From Pseudomonadota bacterium (GTDB taxonomy: Bacteria > Pseudomonadota > Gammaproteobacteria > Steroidobacterales > SZUA-146): a stretch of DNA of 64,000 nt. The position numbers and the translations under genes were made by a program. The stretch is from the NCBI GenBank assembly GCA_039028935.1, contig JBCCHD010000007.1, forward strand, positions 1 through 64,000, in the 5' to 3' direction. The notes beneath the pieces are model-generated. The model was not told where the DNA came from and did not search any database. It was given only the letters and a program-made list of their open reading frames with translations. Below, piece after piece: positions 8,289 through 59,340 of this stretch (position 1 is the stretch's first letter; each line of letters starts with the position of its first letter).

Positions 8289-8352
8289 CGATCGTGTGTG
8301 GTATCGTTGGATTATGACGATAAGGTGCGTACCAGCACGAAAACAATCTTGC

Positions 8353-19566: not shown

Positions 19567-22110
19567 ATGACCACGGAAGGCGATAGTTCAGACGGCGCGA
19601 AGCCCACCTCAGTCGACTCACCGGTCAGCAACGGCGCTGACCTACAGCGCGTGCTCGCGTTGTGTGACGAGGCGTTGCTTAAACCCGAGGAAGAGCGCGC
19701 CGACTTTGTGGCGGACGCGTGTGGTGACGACGAGTCGCTGCGCCTCTCGGTCAATTCCCTGCTGATGTCGGTGGGCGCGTCCAGCGCTTTTATGGAAGTG
19801 CGCACAGAAGAGAACTACGCGTCGCTCATCGGGCAGCAGATCGGTGACTATCGCATCCTTGAGCGCTTGGGCGAGGGCGGGATGGGTAGCGTGTACCTGG
19901 CGGAACGCGAAGGCGGTGAGTTTGAGCAGCGAGTCGCGATAAAAATCGTGCGCCGCTATATGATGAGCCAGGAGCTCGTTCAGCGTTTCGACTCCGAGCG
20001 CCAGCTCCTCGCTGGGCTTCACCATCCGTATGTTGCGCAACTCATTGATGGTGGCACGACCGACGACGGTGTGCCGTATCTGGTGATGGAGTACATCGAC
20101 GGTCAACGCATCGACGAGTATTGTGACGACAATACCTTTACGCTCGATCAACGCATTGAGCTGCTCAAAAAAGTCGCAGTGGCGGTTCAGGCTGCGCACA
20201 AAAACCTTATTGTTCATCGCGACCTGAAGCCGGCTAACGTGCTCGTTACTCACGATGGCATTCCAAAGCTCCTCGACTTTGGTATTGCCAAGCTCATTGA
20301 CCCAGCTGGAAAGCCGGCCGCTGGCCACACTACGATGTTTGGCCACATGCCGATGACACCAGATTATTCCAGTCCCGAACAGATTCTTGAGGGTACGGTG
20401 ACCACAGCCAGCGATATTTATTCGTTAGGTGTGTTGGCGTATGAGTTACTCACCGGTACCCGACCCTACACGCTCAACGCCAACAGTCATCCGCGGCTCA
20501 TGAAATCGGTGGAAACGCTGTCGATTGAAAAGCCCAGTGGTCGCCTCGAGCGCCGGTCTCGCGATGAACAAACGATTTGGGCGTCTCGTCGATCCACGTC
20601 GCCACAGCAGTTGGTGAAAGATCTCGCGGGCGATCTCGATCGCATTTTGCTTAAAGCGCTCCACAAAGACCCGCAACAACGCTACGAGTCGGTCGACGCG
20701 TTTGTTCGTGATCTCGATCGCTATTCAAACGGTTTACCTGTCGAGGCACGTGACGATACGCTGGGCTATCGGGTGTCCAAGTTTGTTGGGCGCAACAAAC
20801 TCAAAGTCGGCGCCGCCACGGTAACCATGCTGGCGGTAGTGGCCGGGCTTGGCTTTTCACTTTGGCAGGCGGGCATAGCGCGGGACCAGTCGATTAAAGC
20901 CCAAGCGCAGCTTCAGCGCGCTGAAGCGGTCAGTCAGTTCTTAGGGGATGTGCTGCTTTCACCCAGCGTTAACTGGGACGGTGCCCTGCAAGCTGGTCCG
21001 AACGCCCGCATTGCGGACGTGCTGACACTGGCAGACAAAAAGCTCGACAGCGAGCTGGAAGACTATCCCGAAGTACGCGTCGAGCTGTATCACAAAATCA
21101 GCGAGGCGTTGGGCGCGGTGGATCAGATGCAGGCATCGCTTGATGTACAAAACAAAGCGTTTGCGCTCGCCGAAGACACATTACCTCGTACCTCGCCGCT
21201 GCGGGTCGACGCCTACTATCGGCTGGCCACGTCGTTGTCTGACGTTGGCCAACTGGATGAGGCAATCGGCGTATTTGAACAAGGTCTTGCGCTGGCCGAT
21301 GAGCAGAGCGACACGCCCACGCTGATCAAGCTGTACCTTATGAACGACTTGGCGCTGACGTATGCCGAGGGTCATCAATACGAAAAGGCGCGCGTCATCA
21401 TGCAGGACACGATTGATGCCGCGTCCGACGTTTTGGGGCCTGGCTTGCACCCGCCGCACACGCTTGGCTATGCCAATCTCGGTAGCATTCATATGGCGTT
21501 AGGACAATTGGATGTCGCCGAACGACACTACAAGACGGGGCTAGAGGCGCATGCGCTGTATCCAGATCAAACGCAGTCAATCGGCGCGATACTACACGAG
21601 CGGTATGCGCGCTTAGCGATTTTCAAACGCGATTACTCAGATGCCAGAGCGCGCTATGAAACCGCACTTGAGCTCAATAACGCAGCGTTTGGTATACCGA
21701 ACACAACCTCTGCCGAAACCAAGATGCGCCTGGCGCACGTGTTGGTGTTTTTAGGTGAGCTTGATCAAGCGCGAGGTTATATCGATGAGGTAGAGCAAGA
21801 CTATGGTGCTCGGTTGGACTACGATTCTGCGTGGATTTATCACTTGGCGTTAGGGCATTTGCGCCTGGCGCGTGGCGAAACAAAGCCAGCACTTGCTGCC
21901 GCGCGAAAGGCGATGGCGCTTGGGTACGAAATTGAAATGAGTCGGTTTGATCGCACCGACACCATGTGGTTGCTGGTCAGAACGTTACGGGCGAACGGCG
22001 AGTCCGCCGAAGCCGAGCGTGTGTATGGCGAACTCATCACCACCGAAAGCACGTGGATGCCGGAGGACACGGCCTACAAACGGTCGCTACGACGTCAGTC
22101 GATGGACTGA
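19567..22110 (+). CDS. Membrane Ser/Thr protein kinase with C-terminal TPR domain
   Basis: 847 residues. An N-terminal helical region (residues 20-80) has the pattern found before the kinase domain in ECF-sigma-linked kinases. The kinase domain is about 93-390: G-loop GEGGMGSVY (103-110), K126, HRDLKPAN (217-224), DFG (237-239), YSSPEQ. One TM helix lies at about 414-436. Residues 480-840 are TPR-like repeats outside the cytoplasm (AIGVFEQGLALADEQ, AERHYKTGLEAHALYP, ARARYETALELNNAAF). All catalytic residues are present. These kinases usually sit beside a TIGR02999-type sigma factor. Here the kinase follows a nitrilase, while such a sigma factor stands at 57312. Targets unknown. The 3' end overlaps the convergent DDAH-like gene by 16 bases. 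Confidence 0.95.
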   Translation: MTTEGDSSDGAKPTSVDSPVSNGADLQRVLALCDEALLKPEEERADFVADACGDDESLRLSVNSLLMSVGASSAFMEVRTEENYASLIGQQIGDYRILERLGEGGMGSVYLAEREGGEFEQRVAIKIVRRYMMSQELVQRFDSERQLLAGLHHPYVAQLIDGGTTDDGVPYLVMEYIDGQRIDEYCDDNTFTLDQRIELLKKVAVAVQAAHKNLIVHRDLKPANVLVTHDGIPKLLDFGIAKLIDPAGKPAAGHTTMFGHMPMTPDYSSPEQILEGTVTTASDIYSLGVLAYELLTGTRPYTLNANSHPRLMKSVETLSIEKPSGRLERRSRDEQTIWASRRSTSPQQLVKDLAGDLDRILLKALHKDPQQRYESVDAFVRDLDRYSNGLPVEARDDTLGYRVSKFVGRNKLKVGAATVTMLAVVAGLGFSLWQAGIARDQSIKAQAQLQRAEAVSQFLGDVLLSPSVNWDGALQAGPNARIADVLTLADKKLDSELEDYPEVRVELYHKISEALGAVDQMQASLDVQNKAFALAEDTLPRTSPLRVDAYYRLATSLSDVGQLDEAIGVFEQGLALADEQSDTPTLIKLYLMNDLALTYAEGHQYEKARVIMQDTIDAASDVLGPGLHPPHTLGYANLGSIHMALGQLDVAERHYKTGLEAHALYPDQTQSIGAILHERYARLAIFKRDYSDARARYETALELNNAAFGIPNTTSAETKMRLAHVLVFLGELDQARGYIDEVEQDYGARLDYDSAWIYHLALGHLRLARGETKPALAAARKAMALGYEIEMSRFDRTDTMWLLVRTLRANGESAEAERVYGELITTESTWMPEDTAYKRSLRRQSMD

Positions 22111-23181: not shown

Positions 23182-23357
23182 CGTCTGTCAGCCTGTTCAA
23201 GCATACCGTCATTATGAGGCAGATCGGCAGCAAAATCAGGTGTGTGAATAAAGGCAGATTTTGGCCAGTTTTGTCGATTGGCCTCAGTCGCATGGCTTGA
23301 TACACCTATACACACGCATATGGACATGCGGTGTACTACTTAATTCAAGGAAGAATC

Positions 23358-26300
23358 ATGCATCTATTCACGCTTTTGCGCTCCAGTGCGCTGCTCGTAA
23401 TTGTGTTGTTGCTGTCGTCACCGATAGTGGTAGCGGACGATCCCGGAGGGGACGGAACAGTGATCGAGGACATACTACTGCCCGAGCCGCGCTTAGGGCA
23501 CTTTCCGGGGGAGAACATTGAACTGGCCTCATTGAAGCTCTCCTACGACTTCGAGGACGTTCGGATTCCGGGTCCCAACGGACTGGACATTGTGGTCGGG
23601 CGTAAGTACCGGCAGGCTGGCAGCAAAACGGTGACACACCTTGCGGGGTTTGGAGACAACTTTGAGTTCAAAGTGCCGTTTATTGCCGTGGCAGAAGATG
23701 TGCCCAATGGCAACACGGTGCCCCAAACCGGATACGAGTGCGTCATCGACGCATCGCGCTTTGGCATCCGCTTTTATATGCCGGATCAAACACTCACAAC
23801 AGTCGGTCTTGCCAATGAAAGCCAGTTGCCTGCGGGCACATTGATGGCGTTCTCCAATCATTCGGTGTTTCTGTGTGAAAACGGCTTGCCCGTGGTGCGA
23901 AGTGCGGAGGGCATTCGTTATGTGTACGGCAAAAAACGCGATACCTCTGAATCGGGTCGAGAAGCCGCCACCCACTATCTGACGCGCATGGAAGATCGTT
24001 TTGGTAATGCGATCGACTATCACTACGCAGCCGATCTGACCGAGCCCTACGCAGTGGCACAGTTAGCAGCAATTTCCCGCAGCGACGGTGCGTTGGTGGA
24101 ATTTACCTATCAGTCGCATTCGTCGATCAACACCATCTCAACAATAACTTACGGCGACCGGCAGCTGACTTATGCGTATGTCGATCCCGGTGCGCAGTCG
24201 AATTACACACTCGATAAGGTGTTTGACGAAGAGGGTCGTGTGACCGATTTCAACTACTATTCGGTGCACGGCTGGCTCGAATCCATCGAGTTTCCAAGCG
24301 GTGCCCGTGCCGAATACACCTACCAGGTGATCAACCCCGATCAGGGGCTCAACGGCCAGGTGCGTTGGAAGACCCTGAGTGGCCCAGATATGCCAACACG
24401 CCACTTCACCTATCATTATCAGCCACAAAGCGCATTCTACTTGCATCACGCCGATGTGTTTGAAACGGAAACGGACGCATTGGACGGCGATATTATCGAC
24501 AAAGTATTCACGATTAAAAATCAGCCCGCCGGCCATCCGTTCACTGCAAATGAACAAGCGCTTCACACCGTGACGAACGGCACGGTTCGCCAGTTCCTCA
24601 TTCTGCACGGTGGTACGCCGCAGATCGGTGGCGGCAACCTTATTTATTCGCTCTACAACGAGTGGGTACCGCATCGAGCAGGGGGAGTGGGGTGTCAAAA
24701 ACACACACAAGCGTTCTTGCGTTATCGAGTATGTGCTCGACCACGACTGACGAAACAGATTCGCAAAGTATTCAACGGTATTGGGAACACCGAGAACACG
24801 TTTACTGCGCACACTCTGTCGTTCGACGCCTATGGCTTCCCAACGAAGACGCGTTACTGGGCCAATTATGACGACTGGGGTGGTGGATCAAAATACGTAC
24901 GTAAAACGTATCTGCATGATCCGACCAATTGGCTGATTGGACTCGAACGTGCGACCTCGTTGTCATCGACCGATAGCCACTACACCGAGACGTTCCGCCG
25001 CGACTACTATTCGCCTACACACGCTTACAAGTCGCTGCCTCAGTTCGATGTTGAGTTCGGGCGTTGGGTCGTCAACTACCAAAGCTATCATCCTAGCGGC
25101 GAAGCACGGGATATACGGTACAACCAAAGTGATCGCGTCGAGCGAAGGCTGCAGTATAAGCGCGGTCAACCGCAGGAATATCAGTTACCCAACACGAACT
25201 CCACGGTCGGCGGTATGGTGTCGCGTTTCGCCCACGTAGACGATTTCGGCAACGTCATCCACGACATCGATTTTCGTGGCAATGAGGTGGTTTACGCCTA
25301 TGACAAACTCAATCGACTCACGCACACCGATTATGGCGGCGCGACTTGGAATGATGAATCTACCGTCTATGACGATACGCAAAATCTCGAGGTGACGACC
25401 ATCGGGAATCTGACCCGTCAACGCTACTTTGATGGTCTCGGTCGCACAACGATGACGCGCTCCGAGGAGACGGGCGACAGCAGTGTGCGCGTAACGGTTC
25501 GTCGTCAATACACAAAGCAAGGACAGCTCGCCTTCTTGTCGTTTCCAGATCACACGGAAGCGGCCGATGGTACGCGCTACACCTATGACGCGCTGGGCCG
25601 CAAAATCGAAGAATGGGATACAACCACCAATTCCACACGGACGTGGGCCTACCTGTCGGGACATCGCGTGCGTTATTTGGACGGTCTCGGCAATGAAACA
25701 GTGACCACATACGAGGCATACGGCACACCGCAGTATCGCTTGCCGGTACAAATACGGCAGGCCGTGTCGTTAGATTCAGGTGGGCCGGATATCGACTATT
25801 GCGGTGATCCGCCTGTGCCCTGTCGTTCATCCAATGATTCAACGTATATCGAAACCCGTCTCAGCTACGACCAATTTGGCAACGTCCGTTCCGTGATGCA
25901 AGCAGATCGGCTAATCGAATACCGCTACGACAACCACCAGAAACTCTGCCGAATCAGTCGCCCCGATGTTGGCGATACCACCATGGCCTATTCGGCCCAG
26001 AATCAACTTCTGTGGTCGGTTGAAGGGGCCAGTGGTAGCAGCAACACCTGCGGCAGCGAGAGCGACGTGGGCCGCATTCAGTATGTGTACGATGCGCAGG
26101 GTCGGCTTCACTATCGATTGGGTGCCAATCCCTATTTCATCGAACTCTACGGGCGCGACGCAAACAACAATGTGTTGGGGACGCTCGCAACCGATGGCAT
26201 CGCCCGCTCGTACTTTTATAACGATCGGAACCAACCCATTCTCGAATATCACTTGGACACGGGTTCGCTGTTTCGTTGGTTGTACAACGCGAATGGCGAT

Positions 26301-27902
26301 CTAAGCGCCATGGTGTATCCCAATGGCACGGTGATTAACTACGCCCCCGATGCGTTAGGTCGACCGACGCAGGCCGGTGAGTTAATCACATCAATTGACT
26401 ATCACCCAACAGGGCAACCAGCGGCGATGACCTATGGGAATGGCTATCAGCGTACGATTGAGCATGCGCCGAGCGGTCGCATAGAGCGCATCACAGACGT
26501 TACACCAAACGGCAGCCTTCAATTTCGCCATACGTATCAGTATGACAAAGAAAATAACCTAAAGGGCATTGCCGATGGCGTCGAGCCGGCTTACAACCTG
26601 TCCGCGTTCAGCTATGACGGATTGGGGCGATTGACGGGTGTACGCGGTGTTTGGGGCAACAGTACGTTTGACTATGACGACACCGGCAATCTCACGCGAC
26701 GCGTACTGGGTGCTCAAATAACCCACTACCAATACAACAGCAAATCTCAGCTTCTTGGTGTGAATGGCCACGTCAACAAGAGTTTTGCGTACGACGGACG
26801 AGGAAATGTGATCCATAATGGCACGCGCTCGTTTAGTTATGATCGTCGCAACCGACTTGTCTCGAGCGCCGGTGATCGGTTCTCATACGATGCACAGGGT
26901 CTTCGAGCCAGCAAGACGACGGGAATTACAACGAGTCACTATGGCTATTCTCTGGGAGGTGTGCTCTATCGATCCACCGATACGGATGGCCGTGCTACGG
27001 ATTATTACTACATTGATGGCAATCTGATCGCTGAGCGCCGCGTTGAGTCCGATGCGGTGGAGTATATTCATACCGACAGACTGGGCTCGGTGAGCCTGCG
27101 CTCCGACCAGGACGGGCAGATCGTCAAGCGCACTCACTTTCAGCCCTTTGGGCAGATGTTGATGTCCAGTAATGACGATGAAACCGGTTATACCGGTCAT
27201 CGACACGACAGCACACTCGATCTTGTATACATGAAGGCGCGTTACTACGACGCGTCGATTGGTCGGTTCTACAGCAGCGATCCAGTTGGGTTCAGAAAGT
27301 CCAACACAGCGTTATTCAATCGCTACGCATACGCCAATAATAATCCCTACAAGTTTGTCGACCTGATGGGCGAAGAGTCCTATCTTGTCAGTCGCCCGAT
27401 CAACGACCCGATCGTTGGTCAGATTGCCAATCACAATTTTGTTGTCAGCCACGCCAGTTTCCCCGGCGATCCCAACGCGTTTGTGTATTCGTTTGGAAAA
27501 CTTGCAAGCGGGGTTACCGGCCAGGTGACTGATACCACCACCGGTTTCTCAGCTGGCACTTACGCGACTGATCGCGAGGCGTGGCTCGCACTTGCCAGTC
27601 AATCGGAGCGGGCGGTCGCGCGATCAGCGACACGCATTAAGGCTGGAGATGATCGCGTTCAGTCGCTGGCTGAGAGCGTGGTTCTGGATACTTGGTACGA
27701 TCCGCTGCCGCAGTTTACGCGCAACAAAACCAACAGCAATACCGTGGCATCAGCCGTCGCGGACACGGCCCAAGGTTCAAAGGTGGCTTTGCCGGACAAC
27801 AATCGAGTCAGTCCGGGACACAATCAAACCGATCGTATTCGTTTCGAGGGTAAGCAGCTTCGAGGGGGGCGGCTGTATCGCATCGATCGTTACAACCTCT
27901 AG
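23358..27902 (+). CDS. Exported RHS/YD-repeat protein with variable C-terminal domain
   Basis: 1514 residues from ATG 23358, which has AAGGAAG upstream and gives a signal peptide (MHLFTLLRSSALLVIVLLL...VVA). Most of the protein is YD/RHS repeats (YDxxGRLTxxx-like: YDALGRKIEEWD, YDDTGNLTRRV, YDGRGNVIHNG, YDAQGLRASKT), expected to form a beta-cocoon shell. The RHS core closes with RYYDASIGRFYSSDPVGF and NRYAYANNNPYKFVDLMG at about residue 1335. The last 170 residues are a different domain (NHNFVV..., RNKTNSNTVASAV..., DNNRVSPGHNQTDRIRF) not recognised. By family precedent it is the toxin or effector tip. The signal peptide and lack of VgrG/PAAR point to Sec export rather than type VI. A 104-residue membrane protein follows. 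Confidence 0.9.
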   Translation: MHLFTLLRSSALLVIVLLLSSPIVVADDPGGDGTVIEDILLPEPRLGHFPGENIELASLKLSYDFEDVRIPGPNGLDIVVGRKYRQAGSKTVTHLAGFGDNFEFKVPFIAVAEDVPNGNTVPQTGYECVIDASRFGIRFYMPDQTLTTVGLANESQLPAGTLMAFSNHSVFLCENGLPVVRSAEGIRYVYGKKRDTSESGREAATHYLTRMEDRFGNAIDYHYAADLTEPYAVAQLAAISRSDGALVEFTYQSHSSINTISTITYGDRQLTYAYVDPGAQSNYTLDKVFDEEGRVTDFNYYSVHGWLESIEFPSGARAEYTYQVINPDQGLNGQVRWKTLSGPDMPTRHFTYHYQPQSAFYLHHADVFETETDALDGDIIDKVFTIKNQPAGHPFTANEQALHTVTNGTVRQFLILHGGTPQIGGGNLIYSLYNEWVPHRAGGVGCQKHTQAFLRYRVCARPRLTKQIRKVFNGIGNTENTFTAHTLSFDAYGFPTKTRYWANYDDWGGGSKYVRKTYLHDPTNWLIGLERATSLSSTDSHYTETFRRDYYSPTHAYKSLPQFDVEFGRWVVNYQSYHPSGEARDIRYNQSDRVERRLQYKRGQPQEYQLPNTNSTVGGMVSRFAHVDDFGNVIHDIDFRGNEVVYAYDKLNRLTHTDYGGATWNDESTVYDDTQNLEVTTIGNLTRQRYFDGLGRTTMTRSEETGDSSVRVTVRRQYTKQGQLAFLSFPDHTEAADGTRYTYDALGRKIEEWDTTTNSTRTWAYLSGHRVRYLDGLGNETVTTYEAYGTPQYRLPVQIRQAVSLDSGGPDIDYCGDPPVPCRSSNDSTYIETRLSYDQFGNVRSVMQADRLIEYRYDNHQKLCRISRPDVGDTTMAYSAQNQLLWSVEGASGSSNTCGSESDVGRIQYVYDAQGRLHYRLGANPYFIELYGRDANNNVLGTLATDGIARSYFYNDRNQPILEYHLDTGSLFRWLYNANGDLSAMVYPNGTVINYAPDALGRPTQAGELITSIDYHPTGQPAAMTYGNGYQRTIEHAPSGRIERITDVTPNGSLQFRHTYQYDKENNLKGIADGVEPAYNLSAFSYDGLGRLTGVRGVWGNSTFDYDDTGNLTRRVLGAQITHYQYNSKSQLLGVNGHVNKSFAYDGRGNVIHNGTRSFSYDRRNRLVSSAGDRFSYDAQGLRASKTTGITTSHYGYSLGGVLYRSTDTDGRATDYYYIDGNLIAERRVESDAVEYIHTDRLGSVSLRSDQDGQIVKRTHFQPFGQMLMSSNDDETGYTGHRHDSTLDLVYMKARYYDASIGRFYSSDPVGFRKSNTALFNRYAYANNNPYKFVDLMGEESYLVSRPINDPIVGQIANHNFVVSHASFPGDPNAFVYSFGKLASGVTGQVTDTTTGFSAGTYATDREAWLALASQSERAVARSATRIKAGDDRVQSLAESVVLDTWYDPLPQFTRNKTNSNTVASAVADTAQGSKVALPDNNRVSPGHNQTDRIRFEGKQLRGGRLYRIDRYNL

Positions 27903-28417: not shown

Positions 28418-30187
28418 CTAGAATTCTTCGGTCACAATGTCGATGATACGCGACATGGTTGAACCAAAGGCACCGGAGTCGATTCGGCCAGGGTTTGAGC
28501 TTTGAGTGTTAAGCATGCCCACCACAACGTATGCGCCACGATCGTCGGATTCCAACAGCCAGCCCAGCGTTAGCACTACCAGGCCTTGAGGATCGCCGAG
28601 GCTGCCCCCTTTGAACCACACGCGCTCCCAATTTCGTCGCGCCTGCCAAGCGCCTGCGTTTGCGCCATAGGCCAAATCAACCATGCGAAATTCATCGCTC
28701 TTGTCGTTGTATTGCCGCATGCCAGCGATGACCCGGCAGACGTCCATTGGACTGGCTTGCCAGGTACCATCCACCAGCACTGAGCCGTTTGCTTGCGGAA
28801 AGGCCGTGACCGGTCCAAGTGGCACAAGCACGTTATTCATGTAATCCACCTGCGCTGATTCGGTGCCATTGGCGTAGGCGAGGGCGTCAACCTCCGGCAC
28901 GGTCCAATAGAGGTGGAAGGTTTCATTGATCGACAAAAAGGGACTCATCACGGAGGGCGTGGCATGGTTGAACGTAGACAATGACGCCTGGGCGGCAGTG
29001 CGGCCCACAAATTCGTGCAGATGATCGGTTGCCGTATTGTCACTGGTCCCCATCATCATATTGGCCATATCCGAAACTGAGAACAGAGCGCCGAGCGGCT
29101 CGTCATTTAAGGGTCCCGCGAACGGCACGATTTCATTGGCATCAAACACCATGTTCTGGTCAGGTGTAATGGTGCCGTCCTTGACCGCTTCAGCGGCCGC
29201 GCCCAATACCCATGCTTTAAAAATCGATCCTGTCGCACGCGGTGTATCCCGATTGATGCCGTATATCGGCGTACACACATTGTTGTCGATGCGTCCAACG
29301 AGTAAGGAGAGCTCTTCACCAAGTGATTCAGCCTGAGCACCCGCTTGGGCCAGCGTTAGGTTTTGGTCGCTAAGGAGTGTCGAGGATGGGTTTTGAGGAA
29401 AGTTCTGCACAAAAAAATACGTAATCTTGTTGTCGCTGAAGCGAATGCGAAGATCCACAAAGCCGGCTGTGCTGCCAGGGTTGGTAGGATCGCCGATCAC
29501 TACTTGGGCCTGACGAGCGGTGACATTGATCGCTTCGATCACACGCGCATTCGGAAAACTTGTGCGAAGCGTGTCAAAAAAGGACTGCAGGCTGGCAAAG
29601 TCAAAACCTGGCACGAATCGCGCTTCGATATCGGCAAGCGATGTGCTGGGTAAAGAAAGTTGCGCCATGATCCATTCAAACTGATCGCCCACTGCGTAGT
29701 CCGGAAAGTCCGTCACGCCATTGGTCTCGGGGAAGAGCGGCTGTATGGGCATCGTTCGAGCGGGGTTAATCGGGAAGTCGTCATCAACGTCAGGCGTACC
29801 GTCATTGTCGTCATCGGTATCGGCGTTGTTACCGATGCCGTCGTTATCGGAGTCTGAAACTTCATTGGGGTCGAATGGGAATGCGTCCTGATCGTCAGGC
29901 ACGCCATCGCCATCGGAGTCGGCTTTTGCGGCTGGCGGCAAGAACACGAAATCACCCAGGTCGTCATTGTTGAAGGGCGGTCGAGACGCAGTGCGACCGG
30001 TCGATGTTGCGCCCGCGCGTAATGTGGATGGATCCGTCTTTCGTGGACTTAATGTGTGCCGATATTCACTGCGATACAGGCGCGCTCCGTTTTCATAATC
30101 GGCTTGGTAGACTTCCGCCACCGCTGGCACCGCAATGGCGCCCATCCCCAGAACAATGCTTACCCACTGATTTTTCAAAATACGCAT
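28418..30187 (-). CDS. TSP3-repeat protein with class-A-beta-lactamase-like serine hydrolase domain
   Basis: 589 residues. Signal peptide 1-24. TSP3 Ca-binding loops lie at about 89-145 (DSDGDGVPDDQDAFPFDPN, DSDNDGIGNNADTDDDNDG). A domain at about 165-265 (FDFASLQSFFDTLRTSFP, VDLRIRFSDNKITYFF) resembles the NTF2-like domain before beta-lactamase folds in ORF12/LpqF-type proteins. A beta-lactamase2-like domain follows with SxxK as S321-IF-K324, SDN at 382-384 and KGG near 545. All three motifs are present, so it is probably an active serine hydrolase. Whether it is a lactamase, peptidase or esterase is unknown. The Ca-binding module in front is unusual. Confidence 0.85.
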   Translation of the reverse strand: MRILKNQWVSIVLGMGAIAVPAVAEVYQADYENGARLYRSEYRHTLSPRKTDPSTLRAGATSTGRTASRPPFNNDDLGDFVFLPPAAKADSDGDGVPDDQDAFPFDPNEVSDSDNDGIGNNADTDDDNDGTPDVDDDFPINPARTMPIQPLFPETNGVTDFPDYAVGDQFEWIMAQLSLPSTSLADIEARFVPGFDFASLQSFFDTLRTSFPNARVIEAINVTARQAQVVIGDPTNPGSTAGFVDLRIRFSDNKITYFFVQNFPQNPSSTLLSDQNLTLAQAGAQAESLGEELSLLVGRIDNNVCTPIYGINRDTPRATGSIFKAWVLGAAAEAVKDGTITPDQNMVFDANEIVPFAGPLNDEPLGALFSVSDMANMMMGTSDNTATDHLHEFVGRTAAQASLSTFNHATPSVMSPFLSINETFHLYWTVPEVDALAYANGTESAQVDYMNNVLVPLGPVTAFPQANGSVLVDGTWQASPMDVCRVIAGMRQYNDKSDEFRMVDLAYGANAGAWQARRNWERVWFKGGSLGDPQGLVVLTLGWLLESDDRGAYVVVGMLNTQSSNPGRIDSGAFGSTMSRIIDIVTEEF

Positions 30188-30479
30188 GACTCACCCCAAC
30201 GATCGCTATGTCACTGACCCGACGCCAGATTCGCGCCGTGTCTATAAAGGCGTAAGACCCTAAAAAATCGGTTCAAATCGAGGCCCTGCGTCGCCGCACA
30301 AACCGGCGTAGTGCCGTTGTGAATTGGCAAGGCAAACCTCATTTACTATTTATATATCAGTATCTTAGGTTTTGTTGAGCGGATATCGGACGGCCTTAAC
30401 ACCCGCTTCCCTCCTCGGGTGAGCAGGCCGCCGCCGCATCCCTGGTGGATCGACAAGATCACGGTCGATGAACGGTCGG
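30188..30479. other. Intergenic region without a gene
   Basis: 292 bases between the M20 gene stop and the start of the beta-lactamase-like gene. An AT-rich patch near 30339-30372 (TTACTATTTATATATCAG) may contain the promoter of the 30187 gene. Nothing else seen. Confidence 0.4.
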
Positions 30480-38932: not shown

Positions 38933-41900
38933 ATGTTAACTCGCTTTATCGCAAGCGCGATGTTGGGGGCACTGCTTTTTGTGGCTCCGGCACACGCGCA
39001 AAATAGCGCCGTGATTAATTTCACGACAAATCTGGCCCCTGGAGGCTACTCGGGTGTTGATGACGTCAACCCCTTCATTGCCGGCACGGAACTGAACGAT
39101 TTGTTGAACGGGGTGTTCGGTCCTGGCGCCAGCGCTGATTGGCTGCGCTTCAACGGCCAAATCATCATTAAGAATTTCACGGGAGATGGCACCTATACCA
39201 TCACCCCTGACGGCTTAGGCGACGGTGGTATTTTTCTCCATTCGCCTTTGCTGAATCGACTGGAGACGTCAACTTGGCGTACCGAAGGCTCGCTGTCTTC
39301 GGCAAGCATCACCGCGGGGGGTGGCGTGTTTGACGGCGACCCAACGACCCAACGCGATGACATTTACCTGCCGGACTTTACACCGAACGGCACGGCCATT
39401 GTCACGATCAGCGGTAACCAAGTCACGGTCGACTATGATCTGGACTTTAAAACGCTGGGCGCTGCCAACGCGATCTTCCTTCGCGACGGGGTGACGCCAA
39501 CGGCGTTGTCCGATCGATTGGACGCCGCCAATGCACGCTTTGATACGTTGACGATCGACGGAACCGGCACGGCGGTAACCACATCGGCAACAATCGGCGT
39601 GAACGACGGTGAAATTCCCTTCGGCGTGTATTTTAATCTCGATTCGTTTTTGAGCGGCAACTTGTCGAATACCCTTTCGGATTTGGATTTCTTCGGCGCT
39701 GGTCAAGGCATGCTGACCCGAGAAATCATTCGCAACGAACTAGCGGTCAACAACATCACCACAAACGGTCAAGGCGGTGATCCGCTTCCGGATCCGTTTG
39801 CGGATGAGTCAGGTACCGTGACCTTCTTTGATCTGAACGGCGGCGCCGACTTTGATACAACGGTGTCGGTCGTGCCGCGTGACAGTGCGGTGATCAACTT
39901 TACGACCAACTTGCCACCCGGCGGTTACACGGGCGTCGATGATCTTAACCCGTTCATTGCGGGTACCGAATTTAACGACCTCATCAACGGCGTGTTCGGC
40001 CCAGGTGCTTCGCCTGATTGGCTGCGCTTCAATGGTCAGATTGTGCTAAACAACTTTGTCGGTGACGGTGTGTACACCGTGACCCCAGACGGGACCGGCG
40101 ATGGCGGCATCTTCTTGCACTCACCGCTTCTGAACCGCCTCGAAACGTCGACGTGGCGTACTGAAGGACCGCTCTCACCGGCCAGCATTGTCGATGGCGC
40201 GGGTGTATTTGATGGTGATCCCACTACGGTGCGCGATGACATTTATCTGCCTGACTACACGCCGAACGGTACATTCACCGTGACGATCAGCGGCGACGAT
40301 GTCACGATCGATTATCTGATCGACTTTAATACTCTGCCGCCTTCGAACTCGATCTTCCTGCGCGATGGGGTTACTCCCACCGAACTGTCGGAACGACTCG
40401 ACGACGCCAACGCGCGCTTTGAATCGATTTCAATCACCGGCACGGGCACAGCGGTCACCACAGTGGCAACCGAAGGCGTCGACGATGGTGACATTCCGTT
40501 TGGGGTGTACTTCAACTTCGACAGCTTCCTAAATGGCAACCTGTCGAACACCGTGTCCGATCTGGACTTCTTTGGTCCCGGCCAAGGTGCATTGACCCGC
40601 GGCATTATTCGCAACGAACTCGCTGTGAATAACATCTCGATCGACGGCCTGGGCGGTGAACCGCTGAGTGATCCGTTCGAGGGTCAAGATGGCACCGTGA
40701 CATTCTTCGATTTGAACGGCGGGGCCGATTTCACGACTAACGTGTCTGTTGTGCCGCGCGATACGGCCGTGATTAACTTTACGACCGCATTGGGACCGGG
40801 TAACTACTCCGGCGTGGCGGCACTGGATCCGTTTATTCCAGGCACCGAGTTCAACGATTTGATCAACGGTGTGTTTGGCCCGGGTGCCTCACCTGACTGG
40901 CTGCGATTCAATGGGCAGATTGTGCTCAACAACTTTATCGGCGATGGCACGTACGTGGTGACACCCGATGGCGTTGGCAACGGCGGTATCTTCTTGCACT
41001 CGCCGCTGTTGAACCGAATCGAGACCTCCACGTGGCGTACCGAAGGACCGCTCACGGCCGCGAGTCTCGCCGAGGGTGCGGGTGTGTTCGATGGTGATCC
41101 CACCACGGTGCGCGACGACATTTATCTGCCCGATTTGACGCCCAATGGCGTGATAACCGTGACGATTGCTGGCGATGACGTGAACATTAACTATGTACTC
41201 GACTTCACCACACTCGATCCAACCAATGCGGTATTCCTACGCGATGGTGTGACGCCCACCGACTTGTTTGATCGTTTGGACGAGGCGAACGCTAAGTTTG
41301 AACTGATTGGAGTTGACGGTGGTGGCACCGCTGTGACCACGACGGCGACTGCCAATGTGGATGATCAGGACATTCCGTATGGCGTGTACTTCAACTTCGA
41401 GAGCTTCCTCAACGGCAACCTGTCGAACACCGTGTCGGATCTTGATTTCTTCGGCATGGGCCAGGGTGCGTTGACGCGCGGCATCATTCGTAACGAAGTC
41501 GCTGCGGGCAACGTGTCGATCGACGGTTTGGGCGGCGATCCGTTGCCGGATCCGTTCGCTGCTGAAGAGGGCACGGTGACGTTCTTTGATTTGAACGGCG
41601 GCGCGGATTTGTCCACCACCGTATCGGTGGTGCCGGATCCGGACACCGATGGTGATGACGTCAATGACAGTATCGACAATTGCACGCTCGTGGCGAACCC
41701 CACGCAGCTCGATACCGACGGTGACCGTATCGGTAACCGCTGCGATGCGGACTTCAACCAGGATTGCATTGTGAACTTCCTGGATCTGTCTATCTTCAGC
41801 GACCTGTTCTTGGGCACTGGTAATGCCGGCGACCTCAATGAGGACGGCGTGACTAACTTCCTCGATTTGGCGTTGTTCCAGGATTTGTTCCTGCTGGCGC

Positions 41901-41935
41901 CCGGGCCGAGCAATCTTAGCTCTTGCGGTACGTAA
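38933..41935 (+). CDS. Secreted protein of three 293-residue repeats plus TSP3/dockerin tail; likely iron-regulated
   Basis: 1000 residues. Signal peptide MLTRFIASAMLGALLFVAPAHA. Three tandem copies (residues 24-316, 317-609, 610-901) each start xAVINFTTxLxPGxYxGV and contain WLRFNGQI, GGIFLHSPLLNR, TSTWRTEG, RDDIYLPD, FLRDGVTPT, IPFGVYFN, DLDFFG and VTFFDLNGGAD. No Cys in the repeats. The tail (902-1000) has TSP3 loops (DTDGDDVNDSIDNC, DTDGDRIGNRCD), dockerin-like segments (DCIVNFLDLSIFSDLF, DGVTNFLDLALFQDLF) and the ending APGPSNLSSCGT. No known family for the repeat; function unknown. Preceded by a Fur-box-like site and followed by a strong terminator. The shared site with its neighbour suggests joint expression under iron limitation. 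Confidence 0.88.
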   Translation: MLTRFIASAMLGALLFVAPAHAQNSAVINFTTNLAPGGYSGVDDVNPFIAGTELNDLLNGVFGPGASADWLRFNGQIIIKNFTGDGTYTITPDGLGDGGIFLHSPLLNRLETSTWRTEGSLSSASITAGGGVFDGDPTTQRDDIYLPDFTPNGTAIVTISGNQVTVDYDLDFKTLGAANAIFLRDGVTPTALSDRLDAANARFDTLTIDGTGTAVTTSATIGVNDGEIPFGVYFNLDSFLSGNLSNTLSDLDFFGAGQGMLTREIIRNELAVNNITTNGQGGDPLPDPFADESGTVTFFDLNGGADFDTTVSVVPRDSAVINFTTNLPPGGYTGVDDLNPFIAGTEFNDLINGVFGPGASPDWLRFNGQIVLNNFVGDGVYTVTPDGTGDGGIFLHSPLLNRLETSTWRTEGPLSPASIVDGAGVFDGDPTTVRDDIYLPDYTPNGTFTVTISGDDVTIDYLIDFNTLPPSNSIFLRDGVTPTELSERLDDANARFESISITGTGTAVTTVATEGVDDGDIPFGVYFNFDSFLNGNLSNTVSDLDFFGPGQGALTRGIIRNELAVNNISIDGLGGEPLSDPFEGQDGTVTFFDLNGGADFTTNVSVVPRDTAVINFTTALGPGNYSGVAALDPFIPGTEFNDLINGVFGPGASPDWLRFNGQIVLNNFIGDGTYVVTPDGVGNGGIFLHSPLLNRIETSTWRTEGPLTAASLAEGAGVFDGDPTTVRDDIYLPDLTPNGVITVTIAGDDVNINYVLDFTTLDPTNAVFLRDGVTPTDLFDRLDEANAKFELIGVDGGGTAVTTTATANVDDQDIPYGVYFNFESFLNGNLSNTVSDLDFFGMGQGALTRGIIRNEVAAGNVSIDGLGGDPLPDPFAAEEGTVTFFDLNGGADLSTTVSVVPDPDTDGDDVNDSIDNCTLVANPTQLDTDGDRIGNRCDADFNQDCIVNFLDLSIFSDLFLGTGNAGDLNEDGVTNFLDLALFQDLFLLAPGPSNLSSCGT
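39002..41635 (+). repeat. Three tandem 879/879/876-base coding repeats
   Basis: Units 39002-39880, 39881-40759 and 40760-41635. Long stretches are near-identical at the protein level, and many codon choices are shared, for example around TGGCTGCGCTTCAATGG and the DLNGGAD segment. This indicates fairly recent internal duplication or ongoing homogenisation. Units 2 and 3 look closer to each other than to unit 1. Confidence 0.9.
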
Positions 41936-44821: not shown

Positions 44822-47692
44822 TTAGTTGCTGGCGCAGCTGGCCAGTGCACTCGGTCCTGGTGCTTCCAGGAACTGACTGGTCATGTACGCGTAGTCAAGG
44901 AAGTTGGCCGCGCCATCTCCATTGAAGTCATTGTCAGCGTCGGTGGTGTTAAACACCGTTGAGAACGCCTGAATGTCGGTGAAGTTGACGATGCAGTCAT
45001 TATTGGTGTCCGCATCACACGCGTTGCCGAAGCCATCACCGTTGCTGTCGATCTGATCGGCATTGGCTACGTTGGTGCAGTTGTCCACATCATCACCGAC
45101 ACCGTCACCGTCACTGTCGACGGCTGTGTCGGCGAGTGCTGGAATCAGGCACCACTCGTTCAGCGTACCGGTGTCGATACCGGCGTTGTCCGAAACGTTC
45201 AGTGTCCAAGTGCCGGCCAGATCCAGTCCGTTAAACGCGGAGAGTGGGTTGTTCGGACTCAAGACACCCGTGAGGGCTGGCCCCGGTGCACACTCGTTCT
45301 CAACCGGTGTGGCACTGTCGTCATCCAGCGTGGCATCGACGTCATTGTTGCTGCAGCCAAAGCCCGAGGCCGGGACGCCGGGACGGTCAACCATGACCAC
45401 AGAAGTACCGGAGTCTTCGTGCGTCAGCGTGAAGATGAGGTCGCCAACATAGGTATGGGTCGCGTTGAGGCTCACATTGAGATCCTCGATCTCGCCACCC
45501 AAACCGACGGTGGTTGCACTGTCGAGGCCCGCCGCTGAGTTATCCGGAATGGCCTGACCAGAATTTACACACACAATGTTCTGTGTCGTAAACGAGAACC
45601 CGGCTGTTGGGGTGTTGATGCCGCAAATGTTCGCAGCACGCACGCGCCAGTAGTAGGTCGTTTGTGGCGACAGGCTAGCGGGGAGTGTGTAGCTCGTGCC
45701 GGCCACTTGGTCCACGGCGATCATGTTGTTAAACGCTGCATCCGTAGCGATCTCGATCGTGTAGGTGGACGCTTGACTGCTTGCCGCCCAGGCAAACGTT
45801 GGCGACGAAGGCTGTTCAGTCGCGCCATTGGCGGGCGTCAGCAAGGTTGTGGCACCCGGCGTCGAGGTGGCTACCGACAGCACCAACTGCACGGCACGGT
45901 CCTTCGCGCCCGAAGTGCCGGTAACATCCAAGTTATAGGTGCCAGCCGGTCCGGCTGCGGTGTTACCGATGGTCAGGTTGGAGCTTCCCTCCGGAGTCAC
46001 GGGATTGGTGCTGAAGGTGGAGGTCATGCCCGCCGGCACGCCGTCGACCGACAGAGTGACCGGATCGGAGAAGCCCAGAGCCTGGCCGATATCGATACCG
46101 TAAACGGCCGTATCGGGTGCGCACACTTCCTGGATGGAATTGTCGCTGCCCAAGAAGAAGTCGGGCTCGAATACGTCTTCATCGAAGAACACGTTGGGGT
46201 CTGCATGACCGCTGTTGACGGTGCGGTCGTCTGCCCACTGCAAGTACACCGACGATGCGGTTTGTATCTGCTGGTCGTAGTCACCGTGGTAGCAGGCCGC
46301 CAAGCCTGGATCAATATAGACCGGTGATGATTCATCCGAAATTCGGACGTTTGGACCAAATGAGGCACCACCGTCTTCAGACATGACCGAGTAGTAGTCG
46401 AAGAACAGGTTATTCGCTTCGTCGAGGCGACGATCGTACCAGGCAATCACGATGCGGCCGGTTGGGCCGGCGCTGATGCTTGGGAAAAACTGATCGGTGG
46501 TGGTGGCGTCGTCATTCACACGCACTTCGGGCAACCAGGTGGCGCCCATGTCGGTGGACCGGCGATAGTAAACGTCAATCACATCCCCGACGTCGCGACC
46601 ATCCGGGTCATAGGTGTACACGGCGTGCAAATCGCCGTTGGGTGTGACCGCGATCTGTGGTGAGGACAAATAACGAATGTTGCCATTGAGTGCCGGGCGA
46701 CCGCAGTTGCCGGTTGGGCCTGACGCATAGGGGTTAACCACGCCGGTCACCGGATTGGTGACCCGTGTGAACGTGTCGCCCCCATCGTCTGAGCGCGCAA
46801 TCTCGATGTCCATCGGTCCACTGAAGAACGGGTTCCATCGCACCCAGGCCACGTAGAGTCGACCGTCGGTGGTGATAATGGGATAGGCGCCTTGCGTGTC
46901 GGAGCCTGCGTCGCTCAGCGGTACGGGTGTGGACCAGTTGAGGCCGTCGTCACTGTAGGTCGCGTAGATACGAGCGTCGTCAAAATTGATCCATACCAGG
47001 TGCATTCGACCGTAGTAATCGCTGCTCACTGTGTTGTCGATGGCCAGTAATTCCTTATCGTCTGAGCCACCGACATGTCCCAGCGAACGCAGCGTGAATG
47101 TTTGGCAGTCGTCCGTCGAACGATACACACCCAGCCCGTCACTGTGCAGCGTGGCCAGATAGAAATTACCGTCGGCGCGACGCCACTGCATGCTCGGATC
47201 GCCGAAGCTGTTCGCGTCAAAGGCACCATTGTCGTCAAACGACGCACCGCCATCGGTCGAGCGCGAAAAGCCCGTGAAGCCGCCACCGGCGACCACGCCG
47301 CTCCAGGCATCGTTATAGCCAGAGCAGATCGTGCCGGTGTTTTCATTGAGCGCGATCGACGTTTCGTTTTGTGTTTGGGTGGCACCAGATTCACCGGTGT
47401 CGTCGTTCACTTCAACATCGGTACCCGGAATGCGGTTCGTGACGCGCTCCGGATCGTAATACTCCGACTCGACGCCGCCAAACTCGCTGGTGCGATCGCA
47501 CAGCACTAACAATTTGTTAAGCAGAGCGTCCATGCGCGGACGCTTCTTGGTGTCGTCGAGCATCGCACAGCGGCTGCTGAGCTCCTTCGACGACATTTTG
47601 GTCGTTGCCTTTTTGGTGTCTGACGCCGCGATGGCGCTAGAACTGAAAAGACCGGCGATGACTATCGCGCTGATCAGTTTAAACGTGTTCAT
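44822..47692 (-). CDS. Secreted sialidase-fold (BNR) protein with P-domain and TSP3/dockerin tail
   Basis: 956 residues. Signal peptide MNTFKLISAIVIAGLFSSSAIA. Residues about 130-520 contain Asp-box/BNR motifs (RSTDGGASFDDNG, RSTDDCQTFTL, RSDDGGDTFTR, SEDGGASFGPN), a six-blade propeller as in sialidases or photosystem-assembly-like proteins. Residues 615-700 look like FN3 (SQASTYTIEIATDAAFNNM, TTYYWRVRAAN). Residues 709-845 form a proprotein-convertase P-domain (TYVGDLIFTLTHEDSGT, DLAGTWTLNVSDNAGIDTGTL). The tail 852-956 has TSP3 loops, dockerin-like segments and ends EAPGPSALASC. No proprotease catalytic domain is present. Likely an extracellular binding protein or glycosidase-like enzyme. 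Tail type is shared with 8353 and 38933 products. Confidence 0.85.
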   Translation of the reverse strand: MNTFKLISAIVIAGLFSSSAIAASDTKKATTKMSSKELSSRCAMLDDTKKRPRMDALLNKLLVLCDRTSEFGGVESEYYDPERVTNRIPGTDVEVNDDTGESGATQTQNETSIALNENTGTICSGYNDAWSGVVAGGGFTGFSRSTDGGASFDDNGAFDANSFGDPSMQWRRADGNFYLATLHSDGLGVYRSTDDCQTFTLRSLGHVGGSDDKELLAIDNTVSSDYYGRMHLVWINFDDARIYATYSDDGLNWSTPVPLSDAGSDTQGAYPIITTDGRLYVAWVRWNPFFSGPMDIEIARSDDGGDTFTRVTNPVTGVVNPYASGPTGNCGRPALNGNIRYLSSPQIAVTPNGDLHAVYTYDPDGRDVGDVIDVYYRRSTDMGATWLPEVRVNDDATTTDQFFPSISAGPTGRIVIAWYDRRLDEANNLFFDYYSVMSEDGGASFGPNVRISDESSPVYIDPGLAACYHGDYDQQIQTASSVYLQWADDRTVNSGHADPNVFFDEDVFEPDFFLGSDNSIQEVCAPDTAVYGIDIGQALGFSDPVTLSVDGVPAGMTSTFSTNPVTPEGSSNLTIGNTAAGPAGTYNLDVTGTSGAKDRAVQLVLSVATSTPGATTLLTPANGATEQPSSPTFAWAASSQASTYTIEIATDAAFNNMIAVDQVAGTSYTLPASLSPQTTYYWRVRAANICGINTPTAGFSFTTQNIVCVNSGQAIPDNSAAGLDSATTVGLGGEIEDLNVSLNATHTYVGDLIFTLTHEDSGTSVVMVDRPGVPASGFGCSNNDVDATLDDDSATPVENECAPGPALTGVLSPNNPLSAFNGLDLAGTWTLNVSDNAGIDTGTLNEWCLIPALADTAVDSDGDGVGDDVDNCTNVANADQIDSNGDGFGNACDADTNNDCIVNFTDIQAFSTVFNTTDADNDFNGDGAANFLDYAYMTSQFLEAPGPSALASCASN

Positions 47693-57311: not shown

Positions 57312-57872
57312 GTGGCTGATGTGACGGAACTCCTGCTGCAGTGGAATGACGGCAATGAGGAGGCGCGTGCGCAACTCATGGAGAAAATATACGGTGAGCT
57401 GCGCTCGATCGCTGCCCGTCACTTAGCGAATGAACGCCATGCCGCCGACCTTCAACCCAGCGCGCTGGTCAACGAGGCCTACATGCGGTTGATTAACCTG
57501 AACCGTATTGAGTGGCAGGATCGCGCTCACTTTTTCGCAATGTCAGCGCGGGTAATGCGCGAAATCCTCATCGATGAAGCACGAAAGCGCGGTGCTGCTA
57601 AGCGCGACGGCGGCGTGCAGGTGACGCTCACTAACCTATCGATGGACAGTCAGGATCCCACCACCAATGTACTGATGCTGCACGAAGCGCTAGAGCGCTT
57701 AGCGGACGTGGACCCGGAGCGCTCGCGCTTGGTCGAACTTCGCTTTTTCGGTGGGCTGACGATTGAGGAAACAGCGGCGGTGTTGGGTAAATCGCCGGCA
57801 ACCGTAAAACGAAGCTGGGAAGTGGCCCGGGGTTGGTTGTTCCAGATCATGAATAAGGGCAACACGGCCTGA
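57312..57872 (+). CDS. ECF sigma factor, TIGR02999 type (kinase-associated)
   Basis: 186 residues from GTG 57312, which lies nine bases after AAGGA; GTG 57306 is the alternative. Sigma-2 region ELRSIAARHLANERHAADLQPSALVNEAYMRL and WQDRAHFFAMSARVMREILID, sigma-4 region RLVELRFFGGLTIEETAAVLGKSPATVKRSW. The LQPSALVNEAYMRL segment marks the family that is normally followed by a Ser/Thr kinase with TM and TPR domains. Here no kinase follows; a 71-residue kinase-N-terminus-like gene lies tail-to-tail. The intact kinase at 19567 is a possible partner. No anti-sigma factor is seen. Confidence 0.93.
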   Translation: MADVTELLLQWNDGNEEARAQLMEKIYGELRSIAARHLANERHAADLQPSALVNEAYMRLINLNRIEWQDRAHFFAMSARVMREILIDEARKRGAAKRDGGVQVTLTNLSMDSQDPTTNVLMLHEALERLADVDPERSRLVELRFFGGLTIEETAAVLGKSPATVKRSWEVARGWLFQIMNKGNTA

Positions 57873-58038
57873 CCGCCTGTGGTGTCCGCCCGTTGCGTCC
57901 CGGGCCTACGAGAGGGTGCAGGCGTTGAGGGCGAATCGCGTTGTGCCCCTTCGTGAGCGGGTCCGCTATGCCAAGCGATCACCTGTAATGAGACCAGGCA
58001 GTTCCAGCGGATAGACCCGGCACAGACCCGGCTTTGAA

Positions 58039-58254
58039 TCAGTCGGTCCGTTCGGCTTGGTCAAGAATCAGAAACTCACCGGAATTATCGATCGATTCGA
58101 GCAGCTCTTCCACATCACGCCGCAGAGCGTGATCGGTGCCGCACCGTCGGTCAAGAAACGTACCGCGTGCGACCGGCTCCAGTGCCAGCACTTCATCGCA
58201 AATCGACATGATTAATCGGTCCCTGTCTGATGGTGGCGTCATTTCCGTTTCCAT
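58039..58254 (-). CDS. Free-standing N-terminal region of an ECF-associated Ser/Thr kinase
   Basis: 71 residues. The segment IMSICDEVLALEPVARGTFLDRRCGTD then LRRDVEELLESIDNSGEFLI has the same pattern as residues 25-80 of the kinase at 19567 (LCDEALLKPEEERADFVADACGDD then LRLSVNSLLMS). It stops exactly where the kinase domain would begin; nothing downstream resembles a kinase. It may be a remnant of a lost kinase or a real mini-protein that interacts with the sigma factor. It has GGAAACGGAA before an internal ATG at 58242. Confidence 0.55.
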   Translation of the reverse strand: METEMTPPSDRDRLIMSICDEVLALEPVARGTFLDRRCGTDHALRRDVEELLESIDNSGEFLILDQAERTD

Positions 58255-58596
58255 CCGCGCGTCGTAAAAAGGCCCGGTTGGGCAGGCTAGGCGGCCTCGC
58301 CCGGGTACATAAGTACAGGCGCAAGTGAACGCGATTGTGGATCAATAAAGTTGTTCGTTGGGCAGATCGGCGATGCGGCACGCGATGACCTCGCGTTGTC
58401 GGGCAAAAGCGACGAAAGAACCGCCAAAAAAACGGGCCCGACGTGAGCTGTTTTTGATCGGTCTTGCGCCTAATCATTATGAGCACAGTCAGAATTCGAT
58501 GGCTGTCTGTGTTGCTCGCGTCATTAACCAATATAAAACAATGATTTAAGCGGTCGCCCGGAGAGGCGATTCGATAAAAAAGGGGGAGAACCAACC
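58255..58596. other. Intergenic region without a recognised gene
   Basis: 342 bases between the kinase-like mini-gene and the PEP-CTERM gene. A TATAAAA-like element near 58530 preceded by TTAACC may be the promoter of the 58597 gene. Other frames are not protein-like. Confidence 0.4.
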
Positions 58597-59340
58597 ATGG
58601 CCATTCGACACACTCTGTGCGCCTTACTACTGATGATGGGTGTCAGCAGTCACGCGGCGCTGACTCTGGAATTCACCACGCCCTCCGGCACCGCCGGGGC
58701 GAATGACGCGATCGAGATTTGGCTGACGCTATCAACCGATACCGGATTTAGCTTTGATCCGTTTGATCCTGACGGCGATATGTCTTACGGCGGGGCCATT
58801 GACCCATCCGACGTGCCCAATGAGGGCTTTTCCTTCGACGCCAATATGGGAACGGGCGGTTTTGTCGAATTCGATTTTATTGAGTTTGTCGGTCTTTCCC
58901 TGTTCGCCACCTGTAATGGTTCCTTTGTTGTGGAAGACGGAACGTGCGGGTTCGGCATGGGCGGCACCGACAATTATTCCTTTTCGTTTGGTCCGGGACC
59001 GTCACCCGGCAACGACCCCATATCGCTGGCTGCGGGCGAATCGCTCGACTTTCTCTTCGGCACATTTACGCCCGTGGCTGGCGGTGCTGAAGCCGGTACG
59101 TACGACTTTTTCCGGGTTGGCCTTTCGTTGTTTTTTGCCGGAGTCGGTTTTGATGACTTGGGTGAGGAGGTCGCCGTGGACGCGTTCTTTGATCTTGCCC
59201 TTGCGTGCGAAGACGGTGACCCGTCTTGCGCGTTTACACGCACCGTCAGTGCGACACCTGTGCCGGTTCCAGCCGCCGCTTGGCTTTTTGCCAGTGCGCT
59301 ACTGGCGTTGAGCAGTTTGAGTCGACGACGACACCGATAA
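58597..59340 (+). CDS. PEP-CTERM (VPxPA-type) secreted protein
   Basis: 247 residues. Ribosome site AGGGGGAGAA before ATG. Signal peptide MAIRHTLCALLLMMGVSSHA. Mature part is acidic and Gly/Phe-rich (FSFDPFDPDGDMSYGG, FGMGGTDNYSFSFGPGP), with two Cys pairs (CNGSFVVEDGTC and CEDGDPSC). C-terminus VPVPAAAWLFASALLAL then SRRRHR, a VPxPA variant of PEP-CTERM. Processed by exosortase, probably at the cell surface. Function unknown. It is the third exosortase-type target in this window. Confidence 0.87.
   Translation: MAIRHTLCALLLMMGVSSHAALTLEFTTPSGTAGANDAIEIWLTLSTDTGFSFDPFDPDGDMSYGGAIDPSDVPNEGFSFDANMGTGGFVEFDFIEFVGLSLFATCNGSFVVEDGTCGFGMGGTDNYSFSFGPGPSPGNDPISLAAGESLDFLFGTFTPVAGGAEAGTYDFFRVGLSLFFAGVGFDDLGEEVAVDAFFDLALACEDGDPSCAFTRTVSATPVPVPAAAWLFASALLALSSLSRRRHR

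Follow-up and report, generated by a model that had tools for sequence, protein, structure and literature searches.

Does a sigma factor gene that has parted from its kinase, and that faces a short frame resembling only the front end of such a kinase, mark a broken regulatory module or one that has gained a part? In the window, i.e. the whole 64,000-nt stretch of DNA analysed here, two convergent genes raise this question:

57312..57872, + strand: TIGR02999/PF07638 sigma factor gene (matches to both profiles, orthologue in G001)
58039..58254, - strand: stand-alone kinase N-domain gene of 71 codons, convergent with the sigma gene and called the mini below

The original prediction had left two possibilities: either the sigma-kinase module was broken by rearrangement, or the small protein is a working sigma-binding piece. 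We propose that the mini is a feedback brake on the sigma factor or its kinase, a reading to which we assign a probability of about 0.55.

The sigma factor and its distant kinase

Supported by the orthologue, we place the start of the sigma gene at the GTG at 57312; its stop is at 57872. In profile searches the product scored 201.5 bits with TIGR02999 (cut-off 126.15) and matched PF07638 with an E-value of 3e-55 (187.3 vs a cut-off of 21.1). The orthologue in G001, a genome of the same genus, is 90% identical. The 4.1-Mb genome that harbours the window (G000) encodes seven TIGR02999 sigma factors above the cut-off, including the one studied here, and a kinase gene adjoins five of them. The statement that such sigma genes are nearly always followed by a kinase was too strong, as a kinase follows in three of the seven cases, precedes in two and is missing in two. 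One of the latter is the window sigma gene: we found no kinase gene beside it, and the stretch from 56.4 to 58.7 kb is free of kinase-domain remnants. The second orphan (G000:C38; L157, 6488-7120) lacks both kinase and mini in the 13 kb around it, and its neighbour encodes a giant protein with a dockerin-like tail.

A complete kinase some 37 kb away behind a nitrilase, as originally described, was indeed present:

19567..22110, + strand: Hanks kinase with N-domain and TPRs (Pfam Pkinase and TPR matches)

A nitrilase-family gene (PF00795) directly precedes it, and its start and end lie 37.7 kb and 35.2 kb from the sigma gene, respectively. In the kinase tree, the window kinase belongs to one clade (100/100) together with G001_C24, a second kinase pair (G000_C54 and G001_C281) and the kinases of G042, G058, G064, G071, G083 and G089; the 15 other kinases of the tree fall outside. 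The window kinase is a (co-)orthologue of the sigma-adjacent kinases of relatives. The orthologous sigma gene is adjoined by a kinase gene in G042, G058, G083 and G089, and also in G064, there with the mini in between.

The acidic DxxD of sigma2.2 is absent from the window sigma factor, which carries QPSA instead. Passages of PMC13147305 describe the lack of this acidic motif as a feature of ECF43, and give the Thr at the sigma2.2 phospho-site as conserved in 88% of ECF43. The window sigma factor has Ser at this acceptor position and so lacks the conserved Thr of ECF43. Among nine orthologues the acceptor is T in one, S in three and neither in five; it is T in seven of eight other TIGR02999-type sigma factors (six from the same genome, one each from G342 and G009). 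As the sigma2.2 Thr is not conserved, we call the window sigma factor 'ECF43-like', not ECF43. The Thr of the linker motif T[NDE]xL is present in 9/9 orthologues vs 0/8 of the other TIGR02999-type sigma factors. For EcfK, the same passages of PMC13147305 report phosphorylation of Thr51 (sigma2.2) or Thr106 (linker), either one being enough. Since in the clade studied here the linker Thr is invariant and the sigma2.2 Thr is not conserved, and since either Thr suffices in EcfK, these sigma factors may rely on the linker site.

A stand-alone kinase N-domain gene

Similarity between the mini and the window kinase is confined to the N-terminal region of the latter (35% over 48 aa, pairwise E-value 2e-7), and no readable kinase continuation was found downstream of the mini stop after 71 codons. 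Profiles and alignment thereby bear out the initial observation of a TIGR02999-type sigma gene without an adjoining kinase and with a 71-residue frame on the opposite strand that matches only the pre-kinase region. An alternative start codon, Met5 at 58242, is in line with the start of the G001 mini and is possibly the true one. No family match was obtained in Pfam and NCBIfam, any anti-sigma model included. The AlphaFold2 model of the mini, built from a two-row alignment, consists of three helices (10-23, 27-38 and 42-58) with a mean pLDDT of 75.9 and values of 86-89 in the core blocks. A fold search with this model returned no PDB match at an E-value of 0.001 or better, and two matches, both chance-like, were all that came from searching solved structures by sequence.

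From its homology, the mini would be a free copy of the helical region found ahead of the catalytic domain in sigma-linked Hanks kinases. The minis have a signature of their own, [IV][ED][DNE]S[GC]xF near the C-terminal end, seen in 8/8 minis vs 0/10 kinase N-domains. A branch of the N-domain tree (91/88, not starred) separates the eight minis from the other sequences, and minis and kinase clade together form an 18-row group (99/95). Between G000 and G001, a comparison in which synonymous sites are near saturation, the pN/pS of the mini is 0.46 (bootstrap 0.31-0.66, 0/2000 at 1 or more); the values for other genes are 0.10 (sigma), 0.22 (OmpH), 0.32 (CTERM), 0.34 (kinase) and 0.16 (nitrilase). 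Judged by this ratio, the mini is under purifying selection, and we are close to certain that it is a genuine conserved gene.

Distribution and gene neighbourhoods

With a profile from three stand-alone minis, an order-level sample of 396 genomes yielded short mini frames with E-values of 1.3e-12 or better in G000, G001, G058, G064, G071, G083, G089 and G299. An independent search of the same 396 genomes for sigma orthologues at 63% identity or more retrieved nine, namely those of the eight mini genomes and of G042; the next best reached 51%. At the same score level, a stand-alone mini is found in 8/9 genomes with a close sigma orthologue vs 0/387 others, a co-occurrence evaluated by a Fisher test that ignores genome relatedness. 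G042 has the sigma and kinase genes and no mini. The comparison of the locus among relatives, suggested along with the original prediction, shows the mini to be a conserved stand-alone gene in seven further genomes; absence or degradation in close relatives, which had been named as speaking against it, was not found, G001 having kept the gene.

In a class-level sample (369 genomes, G000 included), four genomes had a match with an E-value of 1e-7 or better; among the limited number of candidates scored per genome, which may have let copies slip through, the mini stands alone in G000 only, and the three other matches lie in long frames. A scan of named genomes returned a single locus, which is the G001 record (MAG SZUA-146, QIGP01000037). 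No match was detected in plasmids or in viral contigs, and on this ground we rejected the idea of a mobile or plasmid gene. G002 (84% complete) lacks the sigma gene, the mini and the neighbouring methyltransferase-like gene; with three genes of the block missing from an incomplete genome, the locus is simply unseen there and G002 is uninformative.

Two of the other short frames from the order-level profile search were looked at. At G116:C81 (L108), a frame of 92 codons showing the pattern of the kinase N-domain (6088-6366, +) is convergent with a gene for a different TIGR02999-type sigma factor (6404-6958, -; 44% identity). The layout is that of the window and perhaps represents an independent case. 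At G022:C19 (L070, 6700-9060), the N-domain of a kinase and its catalytic domain are encoded in different frames, reflecting a frameshift, an assembly error or recoding.

Further genes recur around the sigma-kinase module; those of the window are:

58597..59340, + strand: exported protein with a VPxPA-type CTERM tail (tail read from the sequence; no Pfam match)
28418..30187, - strand: Beta-lactamase-like Ser hydrolase (Beta-lactamase2, E-value 6e-16)
23331..27902, + strand: RHS-repeat giant protein (RHS_repeat, E-value 5e-17)

Mechanical, uncurated ORF picking in the relatives gave the following gene maps:

Window: kinase, RHS and hydrolase genes clustered at 19-30 kb; sigma, mini and CTERM genes at 57-59 kb
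G001: block as in the window, with OmpH, sigma, convergent mini (57%), CTERM protein and methyltransferase-like gene
G064: sigma, convergent mini, kinase upstream of the mini on the mini strand, hydrolase
G083: hydrolase followed by mini on one strand, faced by kinase and sigma
G089: RHS-like giant, PEP-CTERM protein and mini, faced by kinase and sigma
G071: sigma, mini, PEP-CTERM protein, RHS-like giant; kinase located elsewhere
G299 (72% complete): sigma with the mini 96 bp downstream in the same orientation; divergent hydrolase
G058: RHS-like giant, PEP-CTERM protein and mini; a different contig carries sigma and kinase
G042: sigma and kinase, then RHS-like giant and PEP-CTERM-like protein; mini absent

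Pfam backs the RHS_repeat label in the window and the Beta-lactamase2 label in both the window and G299; the remaining RHS and hydrolase labels in relatives were assigned by sequence reading alone. With a cut-off of 20.7, the PEP-CTERM proteins of G089 and G058 scored 24.8 and 23.5, and that of G071 20.3, just below. RHS-like genes accompany the sigma-kinase module in the relatives. The mini adjoins the sigma gene or its kinase in seven of the eight mini genomes, the exception being G058. Opposite the G058 mini, a kinase gene has decayed to fragments; the mini frame is still open.

How much of the proposed rearrangement can be retained? Dispersal of the module is favoured by the kinase clade and by the same split in G001: in the window genome, the kinase gene lies about 35 kb off, sigma gene and mini having stayed together. 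The mini itself is not a by-product of this dispersal, because it is a separate gene beside intact sigma-kinase sets (G064, G083 and G089) and is under purifying selection.

A promoter-like motif

Reading upstream regions by eye revealed a shared motif that the first reading of the sequence had missed, TGANCYR-N13-YTDCGCCT, with TGA and CGCC at a fixed distance of 23 nt. The 4.1-Mb genome contains six exact sites, the reversed control none. Three of them are in the window (PWM scores without its own genome):

58317..58344, - strand: upstream of the mini, exact match, PWM 10.7 (weak)
58444..58471, + strand: upstream of the CTERM gene, exact match, PWM 23.6
30248..30275, - strand: upstream of the Ser hydrolase gene, exact match, PWM 26.6

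The sites of the mini and the CTERM gene are arranged divergently. Two further sites precede the genes for C2, an exported protein with a dockerin tail, and for C19, an M23 peptidase with a like tail, and the sixth, inside the kinase gene C40, is probably a chance match. Exact sites in G001 lie ahead of the CTERM gene, which is kept there beside the mini, the orthologue of the Ser hydrolase gene (by 42 bp) and a gene for another exported protein (66 bp). Order-wide, at least one match occurs in 202/396 genomes; chance matches are common, so that the position of a site counts more than its presence. Searches without the final T were noisy, several genomes being close to the reversed control and many sites lying within ORFs.

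For PWM scoring, matrices were built leaving out the genome being scored. The seeds were drawn from the same gene classes as the targets, L208 was one of the loci retrieved because of their sites, and gene starts set by hand include those of the G299 and G064 hydrolases, the G071 RHS-like gene, the window RHS gene and the G089 and G058 CTERM genes. Scored in this way, 15 of 18 target upstream regions reached a PWM of 16 or more. Below this value were the window mini (10.7), the G058 CTERM gene (8.6) and the window RHS gene, which has no motif (-0.7). The motif was absent from all 17 sigma and kinase upstream regions, where the PWM never exceeded 3.5, and among other genes 1/136 reached 16, that one having been fetched on account of its site. 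The site of the window mini is marginal, as 2/135 unselected background genes exceed its score.

The four minis that do not lie behind a CTERM or hydrolase gene (G000, G001, G299 and G064) all have a relaxed core of the motif within 320 nt, at distances of 37, 63, 106 and 163 nt, measured from the chosen start; the chance expectation is 0.0011 per region (reversed DNA). The four others (G089, G071, G083 and G058) trail a CTERM or hydrolase gene by 36, 49, 64 and 111 bp, and in three of the four (G089, G071 and G083) the gene ahead bears the motif. For the G058 mini no motif was found. In G083, a strong hairpin occupies the gap between hydrolase and mini. In the window, a weak terminator-like hairpin (58272-58287, -) lies between the motif site and the start codon of the mini and is a possible leader attenuator; terminator-like sites in this region number 5 vs 0.9 in shuffles.

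From this association, the motif would be read by the sigma factor studied here. Because it precedes the mini as well as the CTERM and hydrolase genes, the mini very probably belongs to the sigma regulon, and the CTERM protein and the Ser hydrolase are likely members. Motif-like sites also occur near sigma genes of about 50% identity without a mini (L168, G009:C3; L167, G342:C1), which suggests that the wider sigma lineage shares the same promoter. A dockerin/thrombospondin-3-like repeat followed by a short PGPS/PGPG tail forms the C-terminus of several exported proteins:

window, 8161-8799: dockerin-like-tailed exported protein
window, 38933-41935: dockerin-like-tailed exported protein
window, 44822-47692: dockerin-like-tailed exported protein
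L213, 3631-5046: dockerin-like-tailed exported protein
L212, 3812-4717: dockerin-like-tailed exported protein

Two dockerin-like-tailed proteins encoded elsewhere in the same genome bear the promoter motif.

Proposed role of the mini

We propose that the mini joins sigma factor and kinase as the third component of an ECF43-like module. The kinase would activate the sigma factor, which would turn on the mini along with the exported proteins; the mini would then dock at the site used by the kinase N-domain and compete with it for the sigma factor, or bind the kinase, so that the response is damped. Both the binding and the sign of the effect are what we infer. Of the original suggestion of a working sigma-binding piece, a separate and conserved gene under purifying selection has been substantiated, and sigma binding is putative.

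The opposite sign is rather unlikely, but is fitted equally well by the homology, conservation and promoter evidence: as a regulon-induced helper, the mini might bind the kinase N-domain (e.g. in dimerisation) or ferry the sigma factor to a distantly encoded kinase, in the manner of a positive feedback or a scaffold. G000, G001 and G071, which keep the mini with the sigma gene while the kinase gene sits elsewhere, are as expected for such a bridge. However, G064, G083 and G089 retain the mini beside intact kinases, where a bridge would be needless, and by general reasoning a free copy of a docking domain competes by default.

There is only a small chance that the mini has a separate task within the exported-protein regulon (e.g. 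PEP-CTERM/RHS biogenesis) and has lost contact with sigma factor and kinase. Its C-terminal signature is unlike the kinases, and a PEP-CTERM and an RHS-like gene precede it in the same orientation in G089, G071 and G058, but no PEP-CTERM gene was seen beside it in G083, G064 and G299, and it co-occurs with the sigma clade and adjoins sigma gene or kinase gene in all but one of its genomes. A decaying remnant of a broken kinase gene is highly improbable and was rejected on the pN/pS and the intact loci of G064, G083 and G089: the kinase is gone from the window locus, and breakage is known from the G058 remnant and the out-of-frame N-domain of G022, but the mini has its own signature and promoter motif, and its stand-alone frame is open in eight genomes, three times beside an intact kinase.

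For the feedback brake, we tentatively envisage, at somewhat less than even odds, that the kinase docking domain was duplicated, detached and put under the promoter of the very sigma factor which that kinase activates, yielding a new anti-sigma or anti-kinase type of feedback; the sigma2.2 Thr switch would have been relaxed in this clade, perhaps because the linker Thr and the mini took over control. If true, this would be a new kind of feedback regulator for phosphorylation-activated ECF sigma factors. The mini bears on the shut-off of kinase-activated ECF sigma factors and on the role of the helical domain preceding the kinase, and its 71 residues are a ready reagent for asking whether this domain docks on the sigma factor. 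The motif would define a regulon of CTERM proteins, a beta-lactamase-like hydrolase and dockerin-tailed exoproteins.

Comparison with known systems

Known pairs of ECF43 sigma factor and Hanks kinase are EcfP-PknT of Vibrio parahaemolyticus and EcfK-PknS of Xanthomonas citri (passages of PMC13147305 and PMC8999054). As described there, the window module resembles both in having a sigma factor without the acidic sigma2.2 motif and a Hanks kinase led by a helical domain of about 80 residues. The first 81 residues of PknS are predicted to form three to four helices and were not resolved (PMC13147305, same passages), and the three helices of our mini model appear similar to these predicted ones. 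Unlike the two pairs as portrayed in these passages, the window has an extra stand-alone N-domain gene, apparently within the regulon, and a kinase gene that is not adjacent to the sigma gene. The clade also differs from ECF43, as characterised in that source, in lacking a conserved sigma2.2 acceptor Thr (1/9) and having an invariant linker Thr (9/9). No paper describing a kinase N-domain as a separate gene within ECF43-type modules came up in our literature search. Such a gene adds to the known sigma-kinase systems and is not a new kind of system. Like anti-sigma factors co-expressed with ECF sigma factors, the mini would be a small regulator encoded beside the sigma gene, apparently under a shared promoter motif; unlike them, it matches no anti-sigma model and is related to a kinase N-domain, with sigma binding as a putative property.
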